Shown: one piece after another, positions 6,758 to 8,954 of the stretch
Numbering within the stretch: position 1 is the stretch's first letter
How the letters are laid out: each line of letters starts with the position of its first letter
Origin: Deltaproteobacteria bacterium RBG_16_64_85
Lineage (GTDB): Bacteria > Desulfobacterota > Deferrimicrobia > Deferrimicrobiales > Deferrimicrobiaceae
Length of the DNA stretch: 41,551 nt
Direction: 5' to 3'
Assembly (NCBI GenBank): GCA_001798885.1
Contig: MGQW01000013.1
Coordinates: 1-41,551 of the forward strand
Translations under genes and position numbers: made by a program
The notes under the pieces: model-generated
Seen by the model: only the letters and a program-made list of their open reading frames with translations
Database searches by the model: none
Told to the model about the DNA's origin: nothing

Positions 6758-7384
6758 TTACGAGGCGGGCGGTTTCGGCTCGCCGAGCTTGTTCTCCTGA
6801 CCGGCCAGCAGGCGGTGGATGTTCTCCCGGTGGTTGTAGATCACCAGAAAAGCGATCAGAAGGGAAAGGGTGACGCAGGAGCGGGAGGGAGGCCCCAGCA
6901 GCGCCATCAGGATCGGCAGCGCCACCGCCGCGCAGAGGGACCCCAGGGAGACGTAACGCGTGAAGTAGACGACCAGAGCGAACAGGACGACGAGGATGAA
7001 CGTGGTGACGGAGGACAGGGACAGGATGACGCCCAGCGCCGTCGCCACTCCCTTCCCTCCCTTGAAGTGGAGGTAGATCGAGAAGACGTGCCCCAGGAAT
7101 GCGGCCCCGCCGACGAGCGAGAGCCAGAAGTAATCCTCGCCGATGAGCATATACGTCAGCACCATCGGGAAGGCTCCCTTCCCCGCGTCCAGCGCAAGCG
7201 TGAGGATCCCGGCCGCCTTCCCCGCGGTGCGCGCCACGTTGGTCGCGCCGATGTTCCCGGAGCCGGTTTCCCGGAGGTCCACGTTCCGGTCGAAAAGCTG
7301 CGCCACCAGGACCCCGAAGGGAACGGATCCCAGGAAGTAGCCGAACAGGACGAGCGACCCGCCTCGAATCCAGGAACCGTCCAT
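6758..7384 (-). CDS. plsY: Glycerol-3-phosphate acyltransferase PlsY
   Basis: PlsY acylates sn-glycerol-3-phosphate at position 1 from acyl-phosphate, the first step of phospholipid synthesis, in the inner membrane. The 208-residue protein has the expected multi-helix pattern and the conserved motifs SVPFGVLVAQ, LRETGSGNIGATNVART (motif 1), HFKGGKGVATALG (motif 2) and a third near IYNHRENIHRLLAG. The ATG is preceded by GGAGG. The malic enzyme gene lies upstream on the same strand, but the MITE-like element at 7413-7600 now separates them, ending 29 bp before this start codon. Transcription may therefore depend on read-through across the element or on a promoter within it. Confidence 0.97.
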   Translation of the reverse strand: MDGSWIRGGSLVLFGYFLGSVPFGVLVAQLFDRNVDLRETGSGNIGATNVARTAGKAAGILTLALDAGKGAFPMVLTYMLIGEDYFWLSLVGGAAFLGHVFSIYLHFKGGKGVATALGVILSLSSVTTFILVVLFALVVYFTRYVSLGSLCAAVALPILMALLGPPSRSCVTLSLLIAFLVIYNHRENIHRLLAGQENKLGEPKPPAS

Positions 7385-7412
7385 CCATCCTCCAAGGTGG
7401 CTGGAAGGGAAG

Positions 7413-7600
7413 CTAAGTGCTGCGCTTCATAATTACGGCGACGTATAGGATTTCGATACCGCACCGAGAGCGTCGATGCGCCGGCCCGGCAAGGCGCGCG
7501 ACTGAGGCGTACTGTTCAGTACGGCGCAAGGAGCGCAACGCAGCCGGGGCGGATGCAGCGGCGCTCGAATGCAGGCGTAATTGTGAAACGCAGCACTAAG
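7413..7600. mobile_element. MITE-like element with 5-bp target duplication
   Basis: The ends are TGCTGCGCTTCATAATTACG (7418-7437) and its inverted partner CGTAATTGTGAAACGCAGCA (7576-7595), 18 of 20 matching. Direct repeats CTAAG (7413-7417 and 7596-7600) flank them, as a transposase-made target duplication would. The 178-bp element has no coding potential; it holds a hairpin (CGTACTG-TT-CAGTACG, 7508-7523) and a G+C-rich core. This is a non-autonomous, MITE-type element; the helper transposase family is unknown. The right copy of the duplication contains the stop codon of the malic enzyme gene. Confidence 0.85.
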
Positions 7601-8954
7601 TTTCCTCGATCTCCTCGGACCGGGTACGCGCGACGCCCGACTCGAACGCCGCCCGCTCCACCGCCTCGGCCACCTTCGCGTGCATTTCCAGGTTGAGAAT
7701 GGAGGGGACCAGCTCGCCCGTATCGGCAAACGAGCTGATGGCCTTGGCCGCGGCGATCTTCATCCGGTTGTTGATCTTGCGCGCCCTTGCGTTCAGCGCC
7801 CCCCGGAAAACGCCGGGGAACGCGAGGGCGTTGTTGGCGCCCCGGCCGTCGGCGGCGAACGAGGCCCCTGCGGCCCGCGCCTCTTCGGGGAAGATCTCGG
7901 GCCTGGGATTGGACAGCGCCAGGATCACCTGCCCCTTGCGGATCATCTCCTTCTTGATCAGCCCGGGGACCCCCGTGGTGGCGATGACGATGTCGGACGA
8001 CTCCATGATCTCCGGCAGGGTCACCGGCTTCCCGCCGATCTTCGAGAAGATCTCCTTCGCCGTGGGATTGATGTCGGTCCCCAGCATCTTGCGGACGCCG
8101 AAGGCCATCAGCAGCTTGGAGATCCCCATCCCGGCGGCGCCCAGGCCGACCATCCCCACGGTGTCGTTCTTCACCTGCATGCCGACGTACTTGCTGGCGT
8201 TCAGAAGCGCGGCGAGCACGACCACGGCGGTCCCGTGCTGGTCGTCGTGCAGAACCGGGATGTCGAGCATGGCGTCCAGCCGGTCCTCGATCTCGAAGCA
8301 CTCGGGCGCCTTGATGTCCTCCAGCTTGATGGCGCCGAACGTCGGTGCGATGGATGCGACCGTTCGGATGATCTCCTCGGTATCCTTCGACTGGATGAGG
8401 ATCGGAATGCCGTTGATCCCCACGAGCACGTCGAACAGGACCGCCTTCCCCTCCATCACCGGCATGCCGGGCACGGCCCCGATGTCCCCCAGCCCCAGGA
8501 TCGCCGTGCCGTTGGTCACGATCGCCACGGTGTTGCCGATGACGGTGTAATCGTAGGCGAGATCCGGCTTGCGGTGGATCAATTTGCAGACCTTGGCCAC
8601 GCCGGGCGTGTAGATCTTCCGCATCACGGAGATGCTGTCGACCGCCATGCGGGCCTTTACGGAGATCTTGCCGCCCTTGTGGAGCTCCAGGACGGGATCG
8701 ATGATGTCGGAGATGATAACGCCTTCGACCTTCCCCACCTCCTCCAGCACCGCCTGGAGGTGGGCGTCGTCGTCCACGAAGACCGTGAGGTCGCGGGTGT
8801 TGTACTCGAGCCCGTAGCCGACCAGCCGGATGTCGCCGATGTTCCCGCCGGCGGTGCCGATGGCGGAGGCGACCTTCCCGAGGAATCCGGGCTGGTCGAG
8901 GATCATCATCCGGATCGTCTTGACGCTCTTGTCGACGCCTTTTTCGATCTGCAT
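7596..8954 (-). CDS. NAD(P)-dependent malic enzyme with N-terminal ACT domain
   Basis: Malic enzyme converts malate to pyruvate and CO2 with reduction of NAD(P). The 452-residue protein has an ACT domain (about residues 10-85, beginning TIRMMILDQPGFLGKVASAIG), which suggests allosteric control by an amino acid or similar ligand. The malic domain follows (TPGVAKVCKLI, NGTAILGLGDIG, FEIEDRLD, HDDQHGTAVV), then the NAD-binding domain with GLGAAGMGISKLL. The NAD/NADP preference cannot be decided here. There is no Shine-Dalgarno site. A -10 hexamer lies only 6 nt before the ATG, so the mRNA is probably leaderless. The TAG stop sits in the target duplication of the MITE, which left the reading frame intact. 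Confidence 0.96.
   Translation of the reverse strand: MQIEKGVDKSVKTIRMMILDQPGFLGKVASAIGTAGGNIGDIRLVGYGLEYNTRDLTVFVDDDAHLQAVLEEVGKVEGVIISDIIDPVLELHKGGKISVKARMAVDSISVMRKIYTPGVAKVCKLIHRKPDLAYDYTVIGNTVAIVTNGTAILGLGDIGAVPGMPVMEGKAVLFDVLVGINGIPILIQSKDTEEIIRTVASIAPTFGAIKLEDIKAPECFEIEDRLDAMLDIPVLHDDQHGTAVVVLAALLNASKYVGMQVKNDTVGMVGLGAAGMGISKLLMAFGVRKMLGTDINPTAKEIFSKIGGKPVTLPEIMESSDIVIATTGVPGLIKKEMIRKGQVILALSNPRPEIFPEEARAAGASFAADGRGANNALAFPGVFRGALNARARKINNRMKIAAAKAISSFADTGELVPSILNLEMHAKVAEAVERAAFESGVARTRSEEIEET

Follow-up and report, generated by a model that had tools for sequence, protein, structure and literature searches.

How could a strongly folded, non-coding sequence have come to lie exactly at the stop codon of a bacterial gene and leave the encoded protein intact? 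The question is raised by a contig of Deltaproteobacteria bacterium RBG_16_64_85, which was analysed over its 41,551 nt (hereafter the window). Here, a 180-bp non-coding element with GTG...CAC ends (positions 7417-7596, plus strand, with boundaries set by comparison of copies) separates two genes of the minus strand, one encoding malic enzyme (7596-8954; Pfam PF00390/PF03949, malic/Malic_M) and the other the glycerol-3-phosphate acyltransferase PlsY (plsY, 6758-7384; PF02660, G3P_acyltransf). Read directly, positions 7408-7605 are GGAAG CTAAG TGCTGCGCTTCATAATTACG ... CGTAATTGTGAAACGCAGCA CTAAG TTTCC. The original prediction described a MITE-like element inserted between both genes and flanked by 5-bp CTAAG direct repeats. 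The gene order is borne out, with a spacing of 28 nt between the plsY ATG and CTAAG instead of the 29 bp then given; from this position the element may, as then suggested, alter plsY expression. The account that we favour, and hold with high confidence, is that a non-autonomous MITE entered a CTAAG/CTTAG stop site through a transposase acting in trans, and that it belongs to a modular family with a stop-rebuilding target, which has moved between phyla.

The mobility of the element is demonstrated by comparison with related genomes. From eight further genomes of the family, a 191-bp query retrieved full-length copies that are 89-96% identical, have these same ends and lie at unrelated sites. 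The junctions of most of these copies read CTAAG/CTAAG or CTTAG/CTTAG, and their flanks are unrelated. Among the copy-bearing genomes matched over the length of plsY, the DNA of this gene is 74-85% identical to that of the window, and 95% identical copies of the element occur in genera whose plsY DNA is only 74-75% identical. Empty orthologous sites also exist: in L054 the malic enzyme gene ends in ...GAAACCTGAG (TGA) and is followed, 12 bp later, by the plsY ATG, with no element and with CTGAG, itself a CTNAG, at the site. Malic enzyme likewise adjoins plsY without the element in L057, L059-L061, L063, L064 and L069, and L053 carries CCTAGG at the same malic enzyme stop. Relatives thus keep conserved ends and an empty site is found, the opposite of what had been named as grounds for abandoning the prediction. 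Within its own genome, the core of the element recurs about a dozen further times, in matches that cover the interior only, and the plasmids and phages searched gave no match. A short sequence with terminal inverted repeats, target duplications and empty sites, dispersed in copies with conserved ends, is confirmed at this level of comparison as a genuine MITE with a history of mobility, and a new MITE family is its best label. At the same locus, a multiheme-cytochrome-like gene apparently lies between malic enzyme and plsY in L052, L053, L055, L058 and L065; the relatives having it include members of the same genus, and the window is without it.

The element is built of terminal repeats, a linker and a folded core. 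The left terminal inverted repeat, GTGCTGCGCTTCATAATTACG (7417-7437, plus strand), recurs in relatives and matches the right one, GTGCTGCGTTTCACAATTACG (7576-7596, minus strand), at 19 of 21 positions; the 20-bp arms with 18 matches seen originally hold as read, and comparison of copies extends them to 21 bp. A repeat finder carried the arms to 30 nt by including the flanks (7408-7437 and 7576-7605, 87% complementary). A longer palindrome, GGAAG-CTAAG-TTTCC, surrounds the target in the window; palindromes of this longer type are absent from the other copies checked by eye. The linker (7438-7460, plus strand) holds about 18 nt that are specific to the 180-bp subfamily and absent, in the alignment, from the 162-bp subfamilies. 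It is followed by the conserved core, GCACCGAGAGCG...CGCTCGAATGC (7461-7572, plus strand, about 112 bp), which is common to elements with other ends and to several phyla, and whose apical hairpin, GTACTG-TT-CAGTAC (7509-7522, plus strand), was placed by the fold and the consensus structure. Two copies, L019 and L147, carry a foreign hairpin or other sequence in place of this apical hairpin (GGGGGACACTC...GAGTGTCCCCC in L019).

What exactly was duplicated upon insertion differs from the first reading. An exact duplication beside GT...AC ends was found in 81 of 184 copies (39 with TNA, 42 with TA); the other 103 lack it, being decayed, partial or assigned wrong ends. Of the 39 TNA copies, 26 have C as the left and G as the right outer base; in the remaining ones one or both outer bases vary, and the element keeps its terminal G and C in the subset tabulated. 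No copy shares four bases. This behaviour rules out a 5-bp CTAAG duplication. Because the outer bases vary and G...C is constant, the CTAAG repeat is better described as a 3-bp duplication within a palindromic CTNAG target plus the end base of the element. In the window, the duplicated TAA thus occupies 7414-7416, within C-TAA-G, and 7597-7599, in agreement with the TNA-matched copies, and the C and G outside it are part of the preferred CTNAG target. The TAG stop of malic enzyme (7596-7598, minus strand) is preserved, as had been proposed, although only its TA comes from the duplication and its G is the complement of the last base of the element, a C.

The length of the duplication is predicted by the class of ends. 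Copies with TTCAT-type ends duplicate TNA in 32 cases and TA in 3, those with TCTC-type ends TA in 32 and TNA in 1, and this holds in both main clades. The end class of the window is therefore one that duplicates TNA in CTNAG, whereas the TA duplication expected of an IS630-derived MITE is seen in its sister class. A third, longer end type, CCGGYCTCCAGGG...CCCTGGAGGCCGG, surrounds the same core in seven copies of the same genome as the window (L011, L012 and L014-L018). The converse of end swapping is seen in L200-L202, L212, L218 and L219, in which an end nearly identical to that of the window element borders a different interior (GGTCTCGTATCGGGCCGAYGCC...).

The core follows another logic: its identity reaches 0.877 when end classes are compared inside one clade, but 0.835 when clades are compared inside one end class. 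Sequence comparison hence shows that, with the core following the host clade and the ends following the duplication, both parts behave as modules. The most economical reading has core and ends recombining or being converted independently of each other, with one core moved by different transposases; since at least two end classes (TNA and TA) with different duplications carry one folded core, different transposases would probably mobilise them. A pattern on the 3′ end of the core detected it, among the matches listed, in Actinomycetota, Deltaproteobacteria, Gemmatimonadota, Planctomycetota, Nitrospirota and a gammaproteobacterium; many copies were gathered with this pattern on the conserved 3′ part, which misses divergent members. 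One end pattern alone gave 240 and 125 matches in two Actinomycetota genomes. The distribution is best explained by movement of the family between phyla, at least five of them. In the Actinomycetota MAG KR13_S3 (G060), many contigs stop about 115-145 bp into a family copy, probably because the repeat interrupts the assembly, and a recent amplification of the family is likely.

Is the landing on a stop codon a coincidence of this locus? The insertion noted originally is real in the window, and it turns out to be a recurrent property of the family rather than a lone event. For each duplication-bearing copy, the element and one duplication were removed in silico and genes were called with a simple, crude ORF scorer; every remaining CTNAG or CTAG site of these stretches was taken as a control. 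Targets overlapped a gene stop in 35 of 74 duplication-bearing copies and in 24 of 379 control sites. By class, the 37 TNA copies comprise 16 on stops, 15 intergenic and 6 genic (controls: 13, 58 and 237 of 308), and the 37 TA copies 19, 9 and 9 (controls: 11, 18 and 42 of 71). The stop codons hit were TAG 23 times and TAA 14 times. A simple property of the target could account for this: as the element starts with G and ends with C and its target is CTNAG (CTAG in the sister end class), a TAA or TAG stop is regenerated whenever one is hit. Since the junction restores TAA or TAG, such insertions are silent at the protein level; they would therefore be near neutral and accumulate, and this neutrality may be the cause of the enrichment. 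A stop-rebuilding target would thus offer a simple entry into dense operons without harm to proteins. At one copy, a C-terminus seems to have been altered: in the own genome of the window (L009, C92:15336-15863), a ribD-like frame enters a family copy and ends inside it (..PQVPQFTNTVSTESVDAPLRQGARLRRT*).

How far the enrichment needs any preference of the transposase is a narrower matter. An AT-rich CTNAG/CTAG target in GC-rich genomes, combined with purifying selection against genic insertions, may suffice without an intrinsic preference for gene ends, a reading that we consider somewhat probable. The target itself holds TAA/TAG, 11 of the 71 control CTAG sites already coincide with a stop, and selection against other sites would enrich the silent insertions at stop codons; nevertheless, the enrichment persists against intergenic control sites alone (TNA, odds ratio 4.8, p = 0.0009; TA, odds ratio 3.5, p = 0.02), and the transposase may have a genuine preference for gene ends. 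The strong fold and the many copies at gene 3′ ends would also suit a host-adapted intergenic hairpin of the REP/BIME or ERIC kind, acting in mRNA stability or termination rather than as an active transposon. We consider this very improbable given the target duplications, the empty sites, the insertions in both orientations, the very similar copies in distant genera, the copies between divergent genes and the absence of a T run: at the element of the window, promoter-like and terminator-like sites and a T run were looked for and none was found.

The fold of the mobile element brings up a second question, that of its interior. The plus strand of the window element is the better-folding one (-100 kcal/mol, z = -7.7, against -85 kcal/mol, z = -4.6, for the other strand). 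Not one of 200 dinucleotide shuffles reached as good a fold, which, together with the recurrence of the full element at unrelated sites, rules out a chance palindrome. The strand with GCACCGAG...GAATGC folds better in all 114 copies compared (mean -95 versus -75 kcal/mol), and the consensus folds of the two strands reach -59 and -28 kcal/mol. When 36 divergent copies were aligned, changes on both sides appeared in 34 of the 55 consensus pairs, and invariant unpaired motifs are present. New single changes at paired positions yield G-T more often than C-A in the terminal repeats (55 versus 14) and in the core (41 versus 16; total 96:30), although the copies are related and the difference shrinks when distinct events are counted (21 versus 7 in the repeats, 15 versus 13 in the core). 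The host gene is oriented in either direction relative to the element without bias (20 versus 17), so that the strand bias is not attributable to host transcripts.

As palindromes acting at the DNA level give no reason for such a bias, it suggests selection on a single-stranded form of the plus strand, RNA or possibly ssDNA, which is the most uncertain part of our interpretation. A stronger version, that the core is a functional plus-strand RNA for which the terminal repeats are merely a vehicle, would explain both fold and strand bias by selection on the RNA. The consistent plus-strand fold, the G-T excess in repeats and core, the consensus energies with their unpaired motifs and the unbiased orientation fit this idea, which we nonetheless regard as unlikely in view of the relatedness of the copies, the fewer distinct events and the lack of both a promoter-like site and an Rfam match. 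No Rfam family scored above its gathering threshold for the element, and a match to mir-935 (E = 0.25) was discarded as chance. Slightly more doubtful still is a mobile structured RNA (or ssDNA) module that exchanges its ends and thereby enlists different transposases, has spread over at least five phyla and needs its folded plus strand for mobility or acts with it in trans. The interiors of MITEs are usually regarded as passive filler. In this family it is the interior that is conserved, showing compensatory changes and a strand bias, whereas ends and duplication length vary, and the role of a MITE interior becomes directly testable.

Under the favoured account of a trans-mobilised MITE, the element would have been cut and pasted into the CTAAG/CTTAG site that forms the malic enzyme stop by a DDE-type transposase encoded elsewhere, whose 3-bp staggered cut would duplicate TNA. 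The transposase gene with matching ends that the original prediction had proposed to look for was not found in the genomes searched. An autonomous partner with the ends of the window element was absent by end pattern from 24 genomes of the family and three Actinomycetota genomes, and none of the DDE_3 elements (24 and 13 genomes) or ISAzo13 elements (16 genomes) has these ends; DDE_Tnp_1 (PF01609) elements from 9 genomes have others. Pairs of inverted ends 0.7-3 kb apart included none autonomous with these ends. Taken together, these searches covered few transposase families in incomplete assemblies. An apparent 1.4-kb pair in L187 consists of two MITE copies. MITEs usually have ends in common with an autonomous insertion sequence; this is not required, and many have no known partner. 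For the TA class only, two elements support an IS630-like mobilisation: the IS630-type element of L241, from the Geobacter genome with one copy, has GTG..CAC ends, lies at CTAG and duplicates TA, and L236, in the family of the window, has GTGTAGTCCGTCA ends nearly similar to those of the TA class.

Among known insertion sequences, the IS630 family (DDE_3) resembles the TA end class in its GTG..CAC ends at CTAG and its TA duplication, although the IS630-type elements found have repeat sequences unlike those of the element, and the class of the window duplicates TNA. The IS427 and IS1031 groups of the IS5 family duplicate TNA at CTNAG targets, the same duplication type and target as in the class of the window, but none of the PF01609 elements of the 9 genomes is an IS5-type element with its ends. 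IS870 is autonomous, inserts at CTAG and gains its own stop codon there; its target likewise creates TAG at the junction, with the difference that the stop serves a gene of IS870 itself, whereas the element of the window preserves that of the host gene. Chunjie of Geobacter uraniireducens, compared by description only, is a MITE of 178-235 bp with about 38 copies, found in an operon (PMC10969869). The element of the window has a similar size and also lies in an operon; its core was detected, as a single copy, in 1 of 48 Geobacter-family genomes searched. Bacterial MITEs such as RUP of pneumococcus, Correia/NEMIS and ERIC are short, non-coding and strongly folded, with terminal repeats and duplications, and RUP has IS630 ends and TA targets (PMC2229807). 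Our element is alike in size, non-coding nature, repeats, duplications and fold. Unlike them, its class duplicates TNA, its family recurrently targets stop codons, and its core is common to end classes with different duplications in several phyla.
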